Shown: positions 2,728-29,926 of the stretch, piece after piece | Layout: every line of letters starts with the position of its first letter | How positions within the stretch are numbered: the first letter of the stretch is position 1 | Virus record (IMG/VR): IMGVR_UViG_3300019458_000003 | Span: 64,001-95,342 of that record | Direction: 5' to 3' (one strand) | DNA: 31,342 nucleotides | Origin: a virus | Notes under the pieces: model-generated | Databases searched by the model: none | What the model saw: the letters and a program-made list of their open reading frames with translations, nothing else | What the model was told of the DNA's origin: nothing | Made by a program: the position numbers and the translations under genes

Positions 2728-3473
2728 TACGCGAGTACAATCTTTTTGAAATTAGCATGTGATATTTGAATGCCCTCGAATGGGATACCTTCATAGAACC
2801 TGGTTAGGTTGGGGTCAACTGATATACTCGAACCTCCACTTACCATGGCGACCTGTTGACTGACCGACACAGGATGTCGCAGATCTTCAATATGAATGCC
2901 TTTAATTTTCGTATTCTCTGGGAGAGTAGGTGATTGAGCCGATGTCGCATCTGGTAATTCAAATGAAGTAACAATTGCTCCATTTTTGTCAATATACGGT
3001 GCTCCTCGCTCCACTTCAATCCACTCATCTTGAGGATTCGATATTCCGAAATCTTCAGACAAAATCGGGTTTTGAGCAACTTCGTTTCCGTCCGCATCTA
3101 ATTTGAAATACTCTTCTAAAGTCGAACCAGATGCATTCAATAGTCTCTCGGTAGATTGACGCAATTCAATAATATGACGCACCAGGACATGATTATCAGA
3201 TCCAAAATCGCTAAATTCAGTTTGAGGGATTCCCGCTTCATCTTCTTGATCATGTCGCTGATCCTGCAATTCTTGTAGGTGGACGATAGCCTTCCGCACC
3301 AAGGTGTCTCCCACATATGTCTCACCGTTTAACCCTCTGGGGGTTAAAATCGGATCGTCGCTCCATTGAGGCACAGGTCGCCCTTCGGAGTCCGTACCTT
3401 GTGCACCCTGAACTCGGTCCGATTCGTCCAGGCTACCCGTTCCGACATCGGAATGACATGTTGGGCATAACAT
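2727..3473 (-). CDS. Tail-tip protein with N-terminal CxxC, unknown
   Basis: This 248-residue protein starts MLCPTCHSDVG, a half zinc knuckle, and then has a helical part (LVRKAIVHLQELQDQRHDQE; HVLVRHIIELRQSTERLLN), and near the C-terminus IKGIHIEDLRHPV, a short motif often met in phage tail proteins (I-x-x-x-H-[IL]-x-x-L-R). It is in the tip module with one-base overlap to the next gene. Function is unknown. Confidence 0.62.
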   Translation of the reverse strand: MLCPTCHSDVGTGSLDESDRVQGAQGTDSEGRPVPQWSDDPILTPRGLNGETYVGDTLVRKAIVHLQELQDQRHDQEDEAGIPQTEFSDFGSDNHVLVRHIIELRQSTERLLNASGSTLEEYFKLDADGNEVAQNPILSEDFGISNPQDEWIEVERGAPYIDKNGAIVTSFELPDATSAQSPTLPENTKIKGIHIEDLRHPVSVSQQVAMVSGGSSISVDPNLTRFYEGIPFEGIQISHANFKKIVLA

Positions 3474-3474
3474 T

Positions 3475-5649
3475 TTATAAGTAAACGGCTCCTGGAGCTT
3501 CAGGGGGAGTATTGTTTCTTTGAAATTCTTGCCTTCTCTGAGTCGCTATATTTTGATCAACTTTAGCATCCTCTTGGCCGAGCCTAAAAGTGGTTTGTGC
3601 TCGACGTTCTGACTCCCGCCCGTTATCTGGGGTTGGTATCTCTTCTATGATATTGGGAATAAAGATCTCATTGGTTAACGTGACTTGTGTAGTGAATCCG
3701 TTGCTGACATTGTGGACCACGCGTGCAACATCTAATTTCTGACCATCTACTAAAATTGTACTTTTGAGATCAATAGTTTCGTCACCAATAACTGTAATCG
3801 TCCCGCCGGTTCGCGAGCGATTTAATCTCGCGTATTCATTTTGGGCACGTTCTTGAACTATGTCGAGTACTTCGGTTTCATTTGTGAACAATTGACCAGG
3901 GATTGAATTAACAAAGATTTGATATTGATTGTCGGTAATAGTCCTCTTCACAGTGCCGCTGCCAACTGTTGCGGTTGGACGCCCATCCTCATAAGTATAG
4001 GAAACCCTCAAGGCACCTGGAAACCACGACAATCTGGTTAATACCTGAACGGATATGGTGCCGCCACCCGCTATTCCGAGCTTACTTCGTTCCACGAAAG
4101 CACTGATAGTTTCAGTTTCCCAAATCTTAGGGACATCTCCGACAAAAACACGGGTTTGGTCTTCAGATTCATACCTGACGCTAGATCCGACAGAGGAGAA
4201 CCCGCTCGGTTGCACGTTGATAGCTTTGATCGCATACTTAAGCCTTCTGTCACCCTGAATATTGCCTTCCTTCTGAGACAAAGGAAAGAAAGGCCAGGTA
4301 GCTGGTTCATCGCCTAAGCCCTCTAAGCCCATCTCTTCAGGGGTTACTTGAATGTCAGGTTTATATTCAATTACAGGCTCAGGTCTTTGGCTGCCTTCAA
4401 CAAATACGTCGCGTATGTTTGGCTCCGATCTCAAGAAAGAAATGGTAAGCTTACCAGAGTCATCTGGTTCTAAATCTGTATCTTGAATAGCAATAATCTT
4501 TCTCACTCGAAGAAGACTCGGTGGTCCAATTACAGTGACTTCATCGACAACATCCTGACGGTTTTCCGTGACATTAAATTCTAAAATGTTCTTTCCCTTA
4601 GTAAACTGCCTAGTTACGTCTCCACCTTGACCGAATTGATAAACCTCCAATTGCTCCGTGACCTGATTAAAATACAACTTATAGTTGCCCAGCTTCCGGA
4701 TAACGGACTCTGTAGCATCCAACAGAGTCTGATCCGTCAGATGTAAAGTGCCGGGGAACTCTTCGGGAGTACCTGATGGTGTATATCCCAAGATGGACGA
4801 TAAAATTTCGTTGGCGGGACTCTTATTTGCTTCAGTATCTTCCTCTTCTTCCTTCTCATTCCATATAGATTTGTCTGTAGGAACAACGGATTCTTGAAGT
4901 TGAGTGATGTTAGAAATAACTGTAAATGATTTGCCGATTCCGGATCGACTTATGATCTTCGTGATCCCTTTGATTTTGCCTTTGAGGACGCGGCGGCTGT
5001 TGATAAAAATCTCCACTATGTCGTTGTATACTGGAAATCCGCCGCCATCGGGATCTTTCCTGATTTCGAATATGCCGCGAGATAAGTCATTACCATATCC
5101 CAATTCAACGCTTGCTAGAATAGCCTCGGTGTTTGTAACGCTGTTGACTTTTACTTCCCAAGTAGGCTTGGTAAATTTTGACTGAGTAAGATCAAATGTC
5201 GGAGTTGCTGTTAAGGTATTTGAATCCGCGCTCTCTGTCCCTATACCGTTGACTCCTCTTAACATAAAAGTATAGAGAGTGCCTGTCGTTAATCCTCCCA
5301 CATCATATTGAGTAGATGAACCAGATAGAGGATTCGCGTTGGCTAGCGTAAACGGATCAATAGATGCTGCAATTTTATAATATACGTTGTAGAAGGGACC
5401 GCCTCCAGACCACACCAATCTAACGCTATCACCAAGTTTAAGATCTGTGGCTGTTAATAATGTAGGTGCCGTAGGGGTCGTTTGTTCTGGCTCTATGTTA
5501 CCCTCTTCATCCACCGCCCCGACACGTTCAGCAACAACGTTCCCTATGAGATCAAGAAACTTCAGAGATACAATTGTAGAGGATCCTACCGTTTGAGACG
5601 GTTGAACCTCCAAGATTGTTGACTCTGAATCTATCGTCTGCGTTGGCAT
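3475..5649 (-). CDS. Tail hub protein with FN3 domain
   Basis: This 724-residue protein has: two units of the T-I-D type repeat at the N-terminus (QTIDSESTILEVQPSQTVGS); a fibronectin type III domain at ~60-151 (LTATDLKLGDSVRLVWSGGG; YDVGGLTTGTLYTFMLRGVN); and a large hub region from ~155. The hub part has gp27/gp44-like text (GIFEIRKDPDGGGFPVYNDI; VLKGKIKGITKIISRSGIGK; ENRQDVVDEVTVIGPPSLL; GQKLDVARVVHNVSNGFTTQ), as in tail hub/late control proteins. A charged C-terminal tail follows. Such proteins form the hub of the tail tip. The FN3 insert may be surface-exposed. The start overlaps the upstream stop. Confidence 0.72.
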   Translation of the reverse strand: MPTQTIDSESTILEVQPSQTVGSSTIVSLKFLDLIGNVVAERVGAVDEEGNIEPEQTTPTAPTLLTATDLKLGDSVRLVWSGGGPFYNVYYKIAASIDPFTLANANPLSGSSTQYDVGGLTTGTLYTFMLRGVNGIGTESADSNTLTATPTFDLTQSKFTKPTWEVKVNSVTNTEAILASVELGYGNDLSRGIFEIRKDPDGGGFPVYNDIVEIFINSRRVLKGKIKGITKIISRSGIGKSFTVISNITQLQESVVPTDKSIWNEKEEEEDTEANKSPANEILSSILGYTPSGTPEEFPGTLHLTDQTLLDATESVIRKLGNYKLYFNQVTEQLEVYQFGQGGDVTRQFTKGKNILEFNVTENRQDVVDEVTVIGPPSLLRVRKIIAIQDTDLEPDDSGKLTISFLRSEPNIRDVFVEGSQRPEPVIEYKPDIQVTPEEMGLEGLGDEPATWPFFPLSQKEGNIQGDRRLKYAIKAINVQPSGFSSVGSSVRYESEDQTRVFVGDVPKIWETETISAFVERSKLGIAGGGTISVQVLTRLSWFPGALRVSYTYEDGRPTATVGSGTVKRTITDNQYQIFVNSIPGQLFTNETEVLDIVQERAQNEYARLNRSRTGGTITVIGDETIDLKSTILVDGQKLDVARVVHNVSNGFTTQVTLTNEIFIPNIIEEIPTPDNGRESERRAQTTFRLGQEDAKVDQNIATQRRQEFQRNNTPPEAPGAVYL

Positions 5650-6646: not shown

Positions 6647-8710
6647 TTATTCGCGATAAGAAAATCTCACCTTAAACTTCACTGTCCCACCGCCAGAAGA
6701 TGAGGCTGACGATGGCAAAGTTACAAGAAAATTAAGCTTCTTAGCAGAACCACTTGGTATTGGATTTGCAAATTCATGTGTTGTTGTATCGTTAACTTGA
6801 GTGAATCCACCTTCAGCATCGTCTTCAATCGTATACTCATAATCAATGAGCACCGTAGGCGTTCCTCCTGGGATTGCCGTACCCAGCGTGACAACGCCGC
6901 TTTGGTCATCGAATCCACCACCAGTGAAATAGTTTGTGCCTAATCGGTTAGGGTCGGTTCCTAGCCACACTCCCGTGACATCAACTACTTTCGGGCGGTG
7001 GATGACTGTTACATGAGTCGTGTCTGTGGGAACTCGTTCTTCAAGTTCCACTGTTAAGTTATTCGCCACAACTTCATTAGATTGCACCCCTAACCATAAT
7101 TGTTCTACCACTTGTTTACCATACAAAAGTGTGTCAGGGGTATAAGAAGCTTTAACACTCTCACCCATAGGGGGGATTTTACCCTGTATCCCATCCCCAA
7201 ATACAATCTCGCCTGTTGTTGCATCAAATGTATAAACTTCTGAAGTTGGTCCCGATCCAGCAAATGTGGAAACTCTAACCCAAGAGATATCGTTTACTTT
7301 GACTGTGATAAGCTCATCGTTATCCAACGCGGGAGGAAAGGCGACTGTAAAAGATTGATCTGCAGTTCCATTGCTTGTCCCTTGAAGCTCATTCTCAATG
7401 TTGAATTGGACAACGCTAATAGTAACTTCTCTAGCGTCAAATGAATTAAGAACATTTCCTTTGTCATTGAAAAGTAAAAATGGATTATCGGCATGCAACT
7501 CTGTGGTGCCCGCCTCAACAACTCCGAAATCTAATGGGTTGCTGGCCGTCCCAACCGGCGTAGATAAATCAGATTCCTTGAACAATTGCAAATTCACTTC
7601 CCTTACCAAAATATCCGTGTTAGCATTTATGGTCTGCGCGGGCTGCAACAGGATGGTAGAATTGGCACCAATCGCTTGAGTAACGCCTAGTTGTTTGACA
7701 AAAGTATTAGAATCGATTGTTTGAGTGATTGTAGCCTGTATCAATGTCTCAGCGTTTATAGTCTGACTAGGTTGTGTCTCTAAAATATCCGTATCTGCAT
7801 CAATAGTCTCGGTAGCTACCAGTTCCAACACGGTGGTAATGGCATCGATAGTAACTTCAGTCGCGCCGTCAACGGAAGTCTCTGCATCGATTGTCTCTAC
7901 ACCTTGATTAGTGATAATGTCAGTATCGGTGTCAATGGTTTGACTAAAAATGCCCTCCAGGACAGTAGTCAATCCGTCAATCGTCTGAATTGAGACATTT
8001 TCCGGAGTGTTTCCAGCGCCCCCGTTGTATAGGTCGGTTTTTTCCTGCGTATTCAGGACTCTTTTCCATACACCCGTTTCATCAATTCTTCCGTCCCATG
8101 GGTTGATAGGACTACCGCCAGATACATTCGCGCCCAACGCGAAGCGAGAAGTGCCATCAAAAACGCCACCTGTATGGGCGGCGGTGTTGGCCGTGCCATT
8201 ATTAACTTGAATACCAATAGCATCGCCTGTGGCATCATGCCAACAGACAACGAAAATCCATTCACCGGTAGAGGGTGACCCAAAATTGTCTGCGTTTACG
8301 CTCGATAGACCACCGCCACCGGTAGAAGAAACTTCAAACTGCAACCTATCTGTCCCACCTCCGATATAACGCAAACGATATTCACGTTGATCATCGACCT
8401 GATTCCACTTTCCAATGGGACTTGCAGATATTGGTTTTGTGTCAAAATAAACCCATAAAGCCAAGGAAAAACTGATATCGCCCATGCTTAGATCAGCGTT
8501 ATCAGCTATGTCCAAATATTCTGAATTAGCAGCTACAAATTGGGCAGCATCATTAACTATACCGGTGGCTTGACCCACTGTATTGTTGTCAGTTAGGTCG
8601 TTGGCTCCAACTACATCAATGCGAGTACCGGACGCCTCGTCTAGCTTCCAATAAGCTACAAGATCGTCAGTCAATGTACCGCCTGTATCAGGATTAAAGA
8701 CTAATGCCAT
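6647..8710 (-). CDS. LamG-domain tail adhesin with T-I-D repeats and FGDG module
   Basis: This 687-residue protein has three parts. Residues ~10-235 form a LamG/concanavalin A-like domain (LVAYWKLDEASG; FSLALWVYFDTK; GRIDETGVWKRVL), a carbohydrate-binding fold. Residues ~242-370 hold about nine units of a 14-17 residue repeat with core T-I-[DN]-[AST]-x-T-x-[IVL]. Residues ~440-530 carry a module with GTSNGTADQSF and IVFGDGIQGKIPPMG also found in the tip protein at 1159-2727. The C-terminal ~150 residues are beta-rich. It likely binds host surface sugar. Ribosome binding site AAAGGAA. Adhesin role is inferred from the LamG domain and tail position. Confidence 0.75.
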   Translation of the reverse strand: MALVFNPDTGGTLTDDLVAYWKLDEASGTRIDVVGANDLTDNNTVGQATGIVNDAAQFVAANSEYLDIADNADLSMGDISFSLALWVYFDTKPISASPIGKWNQVDDQREYRLRYIGGGTDRLQFEVSSTGGGGLSSVNADNFGSPSTGEWIFVVCWHDATGDAIGIQVNNGTANTAAHTGGVFDGTSRFALGANVSGGSPINPWDGRIDETGVWKRVLNTQEKTDLYNGGAGNTPENVSIQTIDGLTTVLEGIFSQTIDTDTDIITNQGVETIDAETSVDGATEVTIDAITTVLELVATETIDADTDILETQPSQTINAETLIQATITQTIDSNTFVKQLGVTQAIGANSTILLQPAQTINANTDILVREVNLQLFKESDLSTPVGTASNPLDFGVVEAGTTELHADNPFLLFNDKGNVLNSFDAREVTISVVQFNIENELQGTSNGTADQSFTVAFPPALDNDELITVKVNDISWVRVSTFAGSGPTSEVYTFDATTGEIVFGDGIQGKIPPMGESVKASYTPDTLLYGKQVVEQLWLGVQSNEVVANNLTVELEERVPTDTTHVTVIHRPKVVDVTGVWLGTDPNRLGTNYFTGGGFDDQSGVVTLGTAIPGGTPTVLIDYEYTIEDDAEGGFTQVNDTTTHEFANPIPSGSAKKLNFLVTLPSSASSSGGGTVKFKVRFSYRE

Positions 8711-21731: not shown

Positions 21732-23627
21732 TTAAACCTCAGTTGTGCCGATGTTGATGATTTTCCCTTGAAAGGCTTCACACGTAATCTGGAGTACGGT
21801 GAACTCAGCAACCAGCGTTCGATAAGCCGATTGAAGAAGCGCCAAGTCAATAGCACTCAGCGGCATCAAGTCAACCATCTGAATCGCGTTACCATCTTCA
21901 AGAACCGTCTTGTCATCGATGACCAAGAGGCTTGAGTGGTCCATACCGTCAACCGGGAGGTAACGAGACCCGATAATGTCAACCACACCGAAAGGTGAGG
22001 TCCAACGAGTCACGCTAACACCAGCCGGAATGTCCGCCATAGATCCGGCACCGGCCTGGAACAAACGGTAGAACGATCCAAGAACCAATTCACTAATCCT
22101 CTGAACCTCGCGGTAACCAGCAACCACAGCTTGCGGCTTACCACCAACTTCTACAATGTCCCTCTCCAGGCTCGTGATGTCAGAAAGAGAGAGCGCATTG
22201 CTGGTGTTGTCCACAACGTTGGTTGTTGTCTGAGTCAGAAGACCGTCGTACTGAAGACCGCTACCAACAGAAGAATCTCCGTTGATAATAGCCCACTCTT
22301 CCATCAAGGCCACGTTCAACATCTTGACCTTGATTTGGTGCTTTTTGATGTCAGTGTAGGTACCACCGGCCATCTGGTCGAAAAAGCTTACCGTTACCAC
22401 GTCACCGAGCGATGTATACGGAGCGCTCAGGAATTTGTAATTAGGGGTCGTGGCATCTGGAAGACTGCCCTTCTCGAAGAACCCCTTAGCAGGATTCGTA
22501 CCGAGAAAGAGACCTTCTGCAGCGGTCGTAGGAACGAGACGGTACCAAGAGTGCGCCTTACCATTACCCTGAATGCGGTTCAAACGATTTCGCAGAGGAG
22601 TATCTGTCGGGGCCATAACAGCCATTTCAGCTTGCAACAAACTGTTACTGCTCTTACGAGCGGCTAGGACATTTCTGCCTAGCTCTGCATATCTCTATGC
22701 AGGTCAGACTATATCATCACTTAGTATTCAAGTGTTCTACGTATAGTCGTTGAGGGTTTAACCTGATTCACATATTGACAAAATTTAAAGAATTTTCTAT
22801 GAATCGAGAAACATACACCTGAGTCAGCCAAGCTACCTAAGTTCATAGAGAAACTGAGCACATCCCATTTTCCCAATCTCGGAGCACCTATCTTAACACC
22901 CACTCTTCTGAAAGCTGCCACAATTGGTTCTAGTTTCGGACCCTTCCCGCAGATACCCGATTGGTAACACATCAAGAAGTTTCCGATAGATTGAGGTCGC
23001 TTTCTACCTTTGAAGGTGCTAATATATCCATCCCCATCAATAAACGCCGACAGAAGATGTACCAAGTGCTTAGCTTGTAACTCTGGAACTGTGGTTTTGT
23101 GGTTGGTAAGTAACTGAATCCATTCACAAAACGAGGTATTGGAGACTGACGCCTCATAAATCCTCTGCGTCCTTCCAACCCCCGCATGGCTGTTCGGGTT
23201 ATTAAACGTTCTATCATATTCCCGCCACCTGACCGGCTGGACCAAGACCTTTTCTAAGGCCGTCTTGGTCTTCCAAGCGTATTCTCGATCAATACTTTGA
23301 TGAGAGAATATTTTAGATCGTCTAATCCCATCCCCGTGTACGCATCCGTCGCTTAAGTATACTCCTACTAAATGCGCAAGAGGGTTAGACCATGCAGTAA
23401 AGTTCCATGTATGTCTCATTAGGTTATCTTCCCTGCTGATTGTCTCTATCCGTGTCTTTTTCCTCTTTGGGAGTCACGGCCTAGCGAGAGTTTCCAGCAA
23501 ATAGTAGAATTTAACGAGGACTTGCAAGAGGTTAATCCTCGCGAACTAAGAGTAACCCAGAGACATCTACCGAGCTAATAGCCTTCTGGATGTCTTGAAT
23601 TGCTTGATTAACTTGCTGTGCGTTCAT
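21732..23627 (-). CDS. Major capsid protein, split by a group I intron
   Basis: Exon 1 is 23627-23535 (31 codons, MNAQQVNQAIQDIQKAISSV to LLLVRED) and exon 2 is 22682-21732 (starting LGRNVLAARKSSN). Joined in frame they give 347 residues. Exon 2 holds a HK97-fold-type capsid body, with RNRLNRIQGNGKAHSWYRL, GLQYDGLL and the late VVDIIGSRYLPV beta strands. Without splicing the message stops at TAA directly at the exon 1/intron border (GAT|TAA). The exon 2 frame has no ATG before residue 'EMAV', only a TTG, so an unspliced downstream start is unlikely. The exon 1 start has an AAGGAG site. The gene follows the protease/scaffold by 39 bases and is followed by a strong hairpin. Splice positions are deduced from pairing and frame, not from an RNA experiment. 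Confidence 0.87.
22683..23534 (-). ncRNA. Group I intron in the major capsid gene
   Basis: The self-splicing core can be folded by eye. P1: exon CGAGGAU pairs with the internal guide GUCCUCG (23521-23515), with the diagnostic U.G at the 5' splice site. P3: TTCTAC (23509-23504) with GTAGAA (22740-22735). P4: TGCTG (23499-23495) with CAGCA (23438-23434), within the typical AATCAGCAGGGAAG Q element. P6: GGG with CCC at 22756-22754. P7: GACTATA (22748-22742) with TATAGTC (22713-22707). P8: CACTT with AAGTG (22734-22718). P9: CTGCATA-GAGA-TATGCAG (22702-22685). The intron ends on G22683. Length 852 nt, with the endonuclease gene in the P6 loop. P10 is not convincing. Confidence 0.92.
22721..23419 (-). 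CDS. LAGLIDADG homing endonuclease (intron-encoded)
   Basis: This 232-residue protein has two LAGLIDADG helices: residues 14-25 (LAHLVGVYLSDG, catalytic Asp likely D24) and 120-131 (VHLLSAFIDGDG, catalytic Asp likely D130). That makes it a single-chain, two-motif enzyme acting as a monomer. It would cut intronless capsid genes near the exon 1/exon 2 junction and copy the intron there; some relatives also assist splicing as maturases. The ORF starts just after the Q element and its last codons (KPSTTIRRTLEY) encode P6', P7, P3' and P8 of the ribozyme, so gene and ribozyme overlap. The ribosome binding site is weak (GGGAAG, inside the intron core), so its translation may be limited by intron folding. 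The frame is intact. Confidence 0.92.
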   Translation of the reverse strand: MRHTWNFTAWSNPLAHLVGVYLSDGCVHGDGIRRSKIFSHQSIDREYAWKTKTALEKVLVQPVRWREYDRTFNNPNSHAGVGRTQRIYEASVSNTSFCEWIQLLTNHKTTVPELQAKHLVHLLSAFIDGDGYISTFKGRKRPQSIGNFLMCYQSGICGKGPKLEPIVAAFRRVGVKIGAPRLGKWDVLSFSMNLGSLADSGVCFSIHRKFFKFCQYVNQVKPSTTIRRTLEY

Positions 23628-26710: not shown

Positions 26711-26998
26711 TTATTTACACTTCGAATGCCACTTAGATTCGCATTTAGTACAAGGTGATCCCATTGAGAATACTTTATTAACCCCGCCCGCATCTTTCAT
26801 TCTATCCTCGCGAAATCTTATTTTACGGGGGTCTACCTTACAATCAAAACTGGAGCCGTCATCATGCTTAACAGTAAATGTATCCTTACCAGTACGAACG
26901 ACTTTCTCTGGCTGCGAATTTTTCTTCTTGTGATCCTTATTTATCCACTTCTCGCGTCCGCGATTCAAACGAGTCTTGGGCGTGATAATGTTTCCCAT
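26711..26998 (-). CDS. Small basic protein with C-terminal CCHC cluster
   Basis: This is a 95-residue protein of unknown function, very rich in Lys and Arg. Its middle part (KDTFTVKHDDGSSFDCKVD) looks like a small beta strand pair, and the C-terminus CTKCESKWHSKCK holds C83, C86, H91 and C94, a plausible zinc-binding knuckle. Its ATG overlaps the stop of the MuF gene (TAATG), so translation is likely coupled. It is the second small putative zinc protein in the head module. Position between the minor head protein and the protease suggests an accessory head role, which is an inference. Confidence 0.65.
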   Translation of the reverse strand: MGNIITPKTRLNRGREKWINKDHKKKNSQPEKVVRTGKDTFTVKHDDGSSFDCKVDPRKIRFREDRMKDAGGVNKVFSMGSPCTKCESKWHSKCK

Positions 26999-29682
26999 TA
27001 TTTGAAGTTTATCCTATATTTTATATCACCAATCTTACTATAATTATCTTTGGCATCAGCGACATCTGATAAGTCTTCTATAACGCCCCTTTGTGCTGAC
27101 CCATTCCGAAATTTCAATTCTGCTTCCCCGTTTCGAACTACTACTACAGCTTCTTGATCCAATTCATTCTGCTGAAACGCTAAACTCTCCAACTCCTTTA
27201 ATTCTGCTTCATTAACATCCGCGACGTAACTTCTCTCGGTGCTGCCTCCCCATTGATCTTCTTGCAATACTACATTATCGGAGTAATTCTGCAGGATCCT
27301 CTTCAATCCAATGCTGCGCGCTTCATTTTGCTTGGGTGATAAGTTCGATTTCTCGGCGGAAACTATAATCTTAGTTCCATGTCTGAGATATCCCTTTACA
27401 GCATTAAAATCTTTCAACTTGTTCGAACTCGGCGTTGAAACAGTTTCCCTATCGATGCTCGGTTTACTTGCAGATCCTCCAGAAGTAAACTTACCCGATT
27501 CATCTCTGGGGTGAAGGTCTTCAGACCAATCCTTCCTAATACCCGAAAATCCAACACCTTTAGAGGTTCTCTCTCTCCAATCGTAAAGCGGTGCCGCGTG
27601 CTTATATCCCAACATTGGTTCATTAACGGCCAATGTTGTATTGTCATCTATTTCTTTGTTGGCGATGATTGAGGTAACCGCATCCGAATAGGTTTTGTAG
27701 GGAGTTCCAGATTCGTATTCGTTTTCTCTTTGCCAATAGTGAACTTCAATTCGATCTGCGTCTCTGACACCACCAGAAGAAGGTGTATACGACACTCTAA
27801 CCCAATCTTTATCTATTTGCCCTGGAACCTTCCCAGATTCAAAGGACTCTGAATGTTCTCTAGCAAAAGGCATGATATAAAAAGAAGATTTATCGGCGTT
27901 GTAAACCAATTTAAACCCGCTTCCGGGCATCTCGGTAGCGGCTTGAACATCAAAGGCCAATTCCTTCAATGTTGCAGTATTAAATGGGCGATCAACTTCT
28001 ACCGGTTTCCATGTTGCGTTGCCGTGGTAATCTTCTTCTAAGGAAGACTTGATAGACTGTCGTACCGTTCCGCCGCTTCCTGATGTAGCCGTTGTAGTAA
28101 ATTTTCCGCTCTCGTCACGAGGGTGCAATTCTTCAGACCATTCAGCTTTGGCAATACCGCTTGCGATAGGTTTCTTAGTGTCCCGGCTATGTACCCAATC
28201 TTTGAAAACCGACAGATCCATTTGAGTAATACCACCAAGTCCACCCCAACCCTTGCCATAGTTAGCCAGGTAACCCTCTTGGGCTTTCTGAGAGTTTGTA
28301 AACCCTAGCATCACTTTGTGCTCATCAAAGCTCTTAGTATCAGGGACGATTTGGTCTATCACAAACACTTGCTGATTGTCGGGATTGGGACCTATGAAAA
28401 CGTCAACCTGGTCTCCGTCTTTATCTTCGGTACCTTTTATATATCCGTAATGATGTGCCAAGGTACTAGACCATTTCTTTCCGTCTTTGGACACGCCAGA
28501 ACGCGTTGATCCCTTTGGGTTCTCAATTGATATATCCAACCCATGTAGATTTACGTGCCCCTTTTTGTAATTTCCACTTTCTTTCTGACTCTGGGTAGGG
28601 TGCCTATCAGTGTCATTTACGACGGAATCGATCGAAGCCTTTTCTAAGGTGTTAGAGTGAACCGCCTTGTCGATCCCAGGAGCACCCCTCCATATTAGAG
28701 ATTCATCCGTAGGAAAGTCAGCAGGTTCAAATAGCTCCGGACAACGGCAGTTAGTTAAGCAGTTATTGGTGCCGGATTCTTCCATATATTGATCAACCGT
28801 CATCCAAAACCCGTCGTTCGATTCGCAACCTTCGCAAACGCGGTTATCGTGCATAGTGCGCCAAAATCCGCCTTCGATAATATCTCCGATCGGCGCACCG
28901 GTATCTTCATCTAGGATCGGCTCACCGGTAGGCTCTCCGGTTTCTTCGTCAATCTTCTGAACATCCTTAATAGCCTGTCCCATACCATTTGCCAATAAAA
29001 CACTTCCAACCGCCGCTGCGAACATGGGTAGACGATGAGATTCCTTGGCTTGAGCAACCTTCATGGCCTCAAGTAGTTGCTCGTCTGAAGCATATTCTTC
29101 TTCGAGAACTTCCTGATATCGCTCATAGAGATCATCGCTGAGCTTATCAATAAATTCATCGTTCCAATCTTGCTTCCCTAAAAGATTTTCGCGATCCCGT
29201 TGGGTTAATTCGTCATCTATCTCTTGGTTGGTGAGAATTTGACCGCGTTGTTTTCCCAATAGGTATACGGCAAGGAAAGCCGCCGGAGCCAATTTCTTCA
29301 AGCGCTCACGCATCTTGTCAACTTCAGGCTGAACCGCATCTTCACTGCCATCTTTAAGTAGCACACCCTTTATCAGGGTGCCCTTCTCTATAGATTCCGA
29401 TAACTTAGACAGGTACTTTTGTTTGAGAGCTTCAGCAATCTTTTTCTGGTGTTGCTCCCAAATTTTTATCAATCCAGCCTTGTATTTCTTAATTGCTCGG
29501 TCTACCCTTTTAGTGATCTTTACCGGAACCGCCCTTTTCTTCATAATTCCGAGATAGTCACCGACAAACTCAATGGCATTAATCAAAGGGTAACATTTAG
29601 TGGTCGTTATAAATACGACCTTATCGTTGTAAACCTTTCTTAATTCTGCGAGAGTTTTTGGCGTGTCTAGATCTAGGCGCAT
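26998..29682 (-). CDS. MuF-type minor head protein with InPase-like and extra C-terminal domains
   Basis: This is a large minor capsid (head morphogenesis) protein of 894 residues from the chosen ATG. Its N-terminal third is helical and ends in a MuF-like cysteine cluster: C283/C286 in RVCEGCESN and C308/C312/C314 in NNCLTNCRCP, the usual Mu gpF/SPP1 gp7 C-terminal signature. Residues ~360-497 (HPTQSQKESGNYKKGH, then SSTLAHHYGYIKGTEDKDGDQ and DEHKVMLGF) match the inorganic-pyrophosphatase-like domain found in phage polyvalent and MuF proteins. Two linkers WSE[ED]LHPRDESGKFT (515-529 and 719-733) flank an unrecognised domain. The last ~100 residues resemble DUF3293-like domains (weak, from memory of the motif pattern). 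I prefer ATG at 29682 because the residues before it are basic and unlike a head protein and the longer form starts with GTG and overlaps the upstream gene by 155 bases. The stop overlaps the next start as TAATG. Confidence 0.88.
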   Translation of the reverse strand: MRLDLDTPKTLAELRKVYNDKVVFITTTKCYPLINAIEFVGDYLGIMKKRAVPVKITKRVDRAIKKYKAGLIKIWEQHQKKIAEALKQKYLSKLSESIEKGTLIKGVLLKDGSEDAVQPEVDKMRERLKKLAPAAFLAVYLLGKQRGQILTNQEIDDELTQRDRENLLGKQDWNDEFIDKLSDDLYERYQEVLEEEYASDEQLLEAMKVAQAKESHRLPMFAAAVGSVLLANGMGQAIKDVQKIDEETGEPTGEPILDEDTGAPIGDIIEGGFWRTMHDNRVCEGCESNDGFWMTVDQYMEESGTNNCLTNCRCPELFEPADFPTDESLIWRGAPGIDKAVHSNTLEKASIDSVVNDTDRHPTQSQKESGNYKKGHVNLHGLDISIENPKGSTRSGVSKDGKKWSSTLAHHYGYIKGTEDKDGDQVDVFIGPNPDNQQVFVIDQIVPDTKSFDEHKVMLGFTNSQKAQEGYLANYGKGWGGLGGITQMDLSVFKDWVHSRDTKKPIASGIAKAEWSEELHPRDESGKFTTTATSGSGGTVRQSIKSSLEEDYHGNATWKPVEVDRPFNTATLKELAFDVQAATEMPGSGFKLVYNADKSSFYIMPFAREHSESFESGKVPGQIDKDWVRVSYTPSSGGVRDADRIEVHYWQRENEYESGTPYKTYSDAVTSIIANKEIDDNTTLAVNEPMLGYKHAAPLYDWRERTSKGVGFSGIRKDWSEDLHPRDESGKFTSGGSASKPSIDRETVSTPSSNKLKDFNAVKGYLRHGTKIIVSAEKSNLSPKQNEARSIGLKRILQNYSDNVVLQEDQWGGSTERSYVADVNEAELKELESLAFQQNELDQEAVVVVRNGEAELKFRNGSAQRGVIEDLSDVADAKDNYSKIGDIKYRINFK

Positions 29683-29926
29683 GTATATCGATTTTACCCT
29701 TATAAATGATTTTCCACTTAGGTTCTGATGGTTTCTTGCGACGAATCTTTTTTGCCTTGTCCTTGCCTCGCACACCAGGTTTGTTAATTATCAGTAAACC
29801 GCCACACCCAATGCAGATAATGCCCTGGTAGAAGCCGTCTCCTCTTATCATGGCGAACATTCTGGATTCTATCTCTGATAGAGTTCCACAAAGGTCGCAA
29901 ATAATTCTGACCCACTTGGGTCTCAT
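29621..29926 (-). CDS. Small zinc-ribbon-like protein
   Basis: This is a 101-residue basic protein of unknown function. Two CxxC knuckles are visible, C10-x2-C13 and C38-x2-C41, separated by 24 residues, which is the layout of a zinc ribbon or rubredoxin-like knuckle. The C-terminal half is rich in Lys and Arg (KAKKIRRKKPSEPKWK) and could contact nucleic acid. Its ATG lies 2 bases after the portal stop, and its 3' end overlaps the start of the MuF gene by about 60 bases, so the three genes are probably translationally coupled. Family assignment is not possible from sequence alone. A packaging or DNA-binding accessory role is only an inference from position and charge. Confidence 0.7.
   Translation of the reverse strand: MRPKWVRIICDLCGTLSEIESRMFAMIRGDGFYQGIICIGCGGLLIINKPGVRGKDKAKKIRRKKPSEPKWKIIYKGKIDIHAPRSRHAKNSRRIKKGLQR

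Follow-up and report, generated by a model that had tools for sequence, protein, structure and literature searches.

Our analysis describes an 897-nt insertion in the major capsid gene of an uncultivated virus of bacteria; its assignment as a group I intron is well supported by its sequence, and from its structure we infer splicing. The insertion is in all likelihood a mobile group I intron, which sits after codon 31 of the capsid gene, would be spliced out to leave a message for a 332-residue protein, and would spread into intronless alleles by means of a LAGLIDADG homing endonuclease. The DNA analyzed, referred to below as the window, is 31,342 nt long and covers positions 64,001 to 95,342 of the IMG/VR record IMGVR_UViG_3300019458_000003. 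A second record, L033 (IMGVR_UViG_3300027896_002139), carries an insertion at the same codon, with a homologous RNA core and endonuclease. That the capsid gene holds a group I intron had been put forward in the original prediction, and a covariance-model match just under threshold, intronless homologs, the P1 and P10 pairings and compensatory base changes support this; the 3' splice site proposed there has to be moved, and the LAGLIDADG reading frame that occupies most of the intron had been overlooked. The features are as follows.

23535..23627, minus strand: exon 1 of the major capsid gene; 31 codons, MNAQQVNQ...LLLVRED, ending in GAGGAT at the 5' splice site; intronless homologs share this N-terminus.
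22638..23534, minus strand: group I intron; 897 nt, TAACCT...AGTTTG; supported by the RF00028 match, intronless junctions and 10 compensatory pairs relative to L033.
23515..23541, minus strand: P1; exon CGAGGAU pairs with the IGS GUCCUCG, with a U.G wobble at the splice site; the outer pair is C-G here and U-A in L033.
23421..23509, minus strand: 5' core; P3 5' strand UUCUAC, P4 UGCUG/CAGCA, P5 and its extension, and the P6 and P6a 5' strands GGG and UAACCU.
22721..23419, minus strand: LAGLIDADG homing endonuclease reading frame in the P6 loop; 232 aa, motifs LAHLVGVYLSDG and LLSAFIDGDG; its closing codons overlap P6a', P7, P3' and P8.
22703..22764, minus strand: 3' core; P6a', P6', J6/7, P7 (GACUAU/AUAGUC), P3' (GUAGAA), P8 and J8/7.
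22702-22685, 22683-22663 and 22661-22650, minus strand: hairpins P9, P9.1 (GCUAGG..CCUAGC) and P9.2 (GCUC..GAGC), all intronic; found by free folding, with L033 counterparts that differ in sequence.
22631..22637, minus strand: P10 strand of exon 2; UUGCAAG, 7 bp with CUUGCAA at 23528-23522, directly 5' of the IGS.
21732..22637, minus strand: exon 2 of the major capsid gene; 301 codons and a stop, beginning TTGCAAGCTGAAATG; supported by Pfam SU10_MCP, homologs and PDB capsid matches.

Capsid gene and splice junctions

The capsid reading frame opens at 23627 on the minus strand behind an AGGAG-type ribosome site and continues for 31 codons to GAGGAT, where TAA follows as the first triplet of the intron, so that unspliced RNA would specify a 31-residue peptide only. 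The original prediction had read exon 1 (23627-23535) and its end in this way, and the homologs agree with it, their capsid N-terminus matching exon 1 with the conserved LLLVRED retained. Its assignment of the gene to the major capsid protein is likewise secure, given the match of exon 2 to Pfam SU10_MCP (PF17236; 56.1 bits against a cut-off of 24.1, E 5e-15), the matches of a profile built from intact relatives (profile A1) to solved phage capsid structures in the PDB (best E 2.8e-9), and the genes upstream, where a prohead protease gene adjoins and a portal gene lies farther off. No capsid relatives were found among GenBank phages at E 1e-5 or among bacterial genomes, and the AlphaFold model of the capsid protein (pLDDT 38) was too poor for use.

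Other probable structural genes were noted in the window. A 925-aa head-region protein (26998-29775, minus strand) unites a PF18823 'InPase' domain (E 1e-57) with a weakly matching Mu F-like head domain and, at its C-terminus, a domain like that of S-adenosylmethionine lyases (E 1.3e-6, which passes the cut-off); it possibly provides a virion-borne anti-restriction activity. The large proteins encoded at 6647-8710 and 3475-5649 on the minus strand, in which LamG-like and fn3 domains occur, are likely tail or receptor-binding structures.

The 3' junction was located by comparison with 21 relatives from IMG/VR without an insertion at the site, which are about 40-87% identical and include near-duplicates. 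All 21 run RED-LQ or RQD-LE across the junction (LVRED-LQAEM or close variants). The junction thus has TTG before it and TTGCAAGCT after it, with G as the last base of the intron and exon 2 starting at 22637. Among the G-preceded positions from 22720 to 22603, this is the only one with more than two P10 pairs, and a P10 of 7 bp occurs at just 2 of the 7594 G-preceded positions on the minus strand of the window (0.026%). The other in-frame positions preceded by G (22652, 22634 and 22622) were rejected as 3' sites, P10 being absent there. The relatives' junctions, P10 and the fact that CTAGGC forms the 5' arm of P9.1 together define an intron of 897 nt from 23534 to 22638, and the exons joined at 23535/22637 encode a capsid protein of 332 residues.

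Ribozyme core and covariation

All of the standard helices form: P1, P3, P4, P5, P6, P7, P8 and P9, together with P9.1, P9.2 and P10, could be assigned by hand pairing and by folding of the RNA without its reading frame, with P3 and P10, as pseudoknots, placed by hand. The six of these that had been foreseen (P1, P3, P4, P7, P8 and P9) are among them. The resulting structure of 61 pairs has the P3-P8 and P4-P6 core with the P7/P3 pseudoknot, and the RNA from which the reading frame was removed folds more stably than 200 of 200 shuffled sequences (z -5.4).

The covariance search for Intron_gpI (Rfam RF00028) on the minus strand, which the original prediction had named as a check, does find a match in the local stretch (22844-22685, minus strand; 49.6 bits, E 4.3e-11), yet this falls 0.4 bits short of the gathering score of 50, and no Rfam match passes the gathering threshold in the whole window. 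The shortfall is understandable, since the two halves of the core lie on either side of a 699-nt reading frame (stop included) and the model is matched in two parts; on its own, the 5' half of the core gives a weak match (15.5 bits). When the search was made at the scale of the genome, the match had an E of 4.8e-13; it is the only RF00028 match in the 95-kb record, and no further group I introns and no HNH or LAGLIDADG families were found elsewhere in it. No sigma-70-like promoter was found within the intron.

The insertion in L033 matches RF00028 at 46.5 bits, and its 3' end shares with that of the window the motif AACAGTTTG directly before the junction; the papers on phage introns considered here do not describe it. 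The two carriers are 74% identical in capsid exon 2. When the 61 pairs, with the P3 and P10 pseudoknots included, are compared between them, 48 are unchanged, 10 are compensatory and 3 are broken, with 97.5% of cells paired; slid-partner controls gave 24-40% paired, and none of their pairs had both partners changed. P1, P4, the P5 extension, P6a, P8 and P9 contain the compensatory pairs, which imply selection on the intron RNA, while P3, P6 and P7 are invariant between the two sequences, so that the comparison speaks neither for nor against them.

These structural data bear on two other readings of the insertion. The original prediction ended the same intron 45 nt earlier, at AGAG/CTAGGC (22682), which gave a length of 852 nt and a joined protein of 347 residues. 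The reading frame is open at this end, a G precedes the site, and the Rfam model stops at P9, just upstream of it; however, there are zero P10 pairs at the site, the 15 added residues (LGRNVLAARKSSNSL) occur in 0 of 21 relatives, hairpin P9.1 would be split although its L033 counterpart is intronic too, and the L033 intron finishes with the same motif as the 22637 junction. An end at 22682 is accordingly exceedingly improbable. Hardly any probability attaches, either, to a group I insertion that is dead or decaying and in which the capsid protein starts internally in exon 2 and exon 1 goes unused: in-frame TTG and ATG codons are present at the start of exon 2, but the core, P1, P10 and exon 1, with the LLLVRED of its homologs, are all intact, the compensatory changes imply an RNA under selection, and the endonuclease reading frame is open in both carriers.

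The intron-encoded endonuclease

The endonuclease of the window scores 19.1 bits against Pfam LAGLIDADG_3 (E 0.0016), below the cut-off of 22.5, and its L033 counterpart scores above the cut-off at 27.5 bits (E 3.8e-6); the second motif, LLSAFIDGDG, was read by eye. The two proteins are 58% identical, with dN at 0.42 and dS saturated, and the endonuclease looks to be under purifying selection. A stretch of 29 nt (AAACCCTCAACGACTATACGTAGAACACT) is identical in the window and L033, against 55% nucleotide identity in the remainder of the reading frame, which indicates that the coding sequence in this stretch is constrained by RNA function. The reading frame of the window ends inside the ribozyme core (22721-22764, minus strand), and that of L033 is longer and extends to the P7 3' strand, so that the position of the stop differs.

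L033 holds the only relative of the endonuclease in IMG/VR; none was found in GenBank phages at E 1e-5, nor in bacterial and archaeal genomes. A fold search with the AlphaFold model of the endonuclease placed LAGLIDADG proteins nearest, none of them significant, and is only suggestive because the model is of low confidence (pLDDT 45).

Distribution and probable mobility of the intron

In the capsid tree the window pairs with the intronless L002 (support 91/81) and L033 is sister to the intronless L006 (support 100/99), to which it is 83% identical at the DNA level over 2.2 kb, in an alignment that begins at the exon 2 boundary. With an intronless sister for each carrier, the intron is patchy and mobile-looking in its distribution, as homing would predict, though loss could also account for it. 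The last codon of exon 1 is GAC in 17 of the 21 alleles without this intron and GAT in both carriers (n=2), and the U that this places before the junction is the base required by P1; two carriers are too few for co-conversion to be read from this difference.

We propose that the transcript would fold and that guanosine would attack after GAGGAU, at the U.G wobble of P1; exon 1 would then be joined to UUGCAAG, held by P10 behind the terminal G, to give a single capsid protein of 332 residues. The endonuclease would be expected to cut the intronless capsid alleles of co-infecting relatives at the conserved VRED-LQAE codons, and repair of the cut allele would copy the intron across. A stable, vertically inherited intron that has been lost many times and does not home between viruses is an unlikely alternative. 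It would fit the divergence between the carriers of both intron and exon 2 (endonuclease 58%, capsid 74% identical) and the finding of two carriers only; against it, there is for each carrier a much closer relative that lacks the intron, and the endonuclease is apparently conserved by selection, as repeated homing would need.

An intron that homes might also be retained for a benefit to the phage. The intron endonuclease of phiPA3 is reported to cut co-infecting rivals and lower their virion yield (PMC11620839). By analogy, the endonuclease described here could cut the capsid gene of intronless rivals during co-infection and reduce their yield of virions, with splicing of the capsid transcript serving as a gate on late expression and repair also converting the last base of exon 1 (GAC to GAT); we consider this extension of the homing model rather doubtful.

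Phages whose major capsid gene contains a group I intron have been described before, and the window adds another case. Mycobacteriophage LittleE has an 819-bp probable group I intron in its major capsid gene (Pope et al. 2013, PMC3706429), the splicing of which was proven by RT-PCR and N-terminal sequencing and called efficient (PMC3706429), a point of comparison for the suggestion in the original prediction that splicing efficiency may limit the yield of virions. As described, the LittleE intron is like that of the window in the U before the 5' site, the terminal G, a LAGLIDADG-type reading frame and the existence of intronless relatives (PMC3706429); LittleE differs in being a temperate mycobacteriophage of Cluster J and in having its endonuclease on the opposite strand, whereas that of the window is on the same strand. 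Delta and Zeta crAss-like phages have group I introns in their MCP genes, one of which is in five fragments (Yutin et al. 2021, PMC7886860). They resemble the present case as uncultivated phages with group I introns in a capsid gene, the same gene being invaded recurrently (PMC7886860), but they belong to another phage group and have intron-dense genomes, in contrast to the single RF00028 match found here in the 95-kb record.

The capsid family of the window appears to have been entered a second time. L014 (IMGVR_UViG_3300009502_000077) has, at another position in this gene, a different insertion of 742 nt (3258-3999), with a joined reading of KM-V-NTALIEEW, a P1 of 7 bp identified by eye, a P10 of 4 bp and an HNH reading frame (Pfam HNH, E 1.2e-9). 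It is probably a group I-like intron, its low Rfam score (17 bits) leaving it short of proof.

For annotation, intron-split capsid genes are prone to mis-annotation in metagenomes, and P10 and homologs, rather than the reading frame alone, should decide where a group I intron finishes at its 3' side. For the phages themselves, the window offers a well-delimited and very probably mobile intron, placed in a gene that is essential and highly expressed, with intronless sister alleles that mark the point of insertion. Two sites in one capsid family, associated with unrelated endonucleases (LAGLIDADG in the window and L033, HNH in L014), support the idea that homing repeatedly targets conserved head genes.
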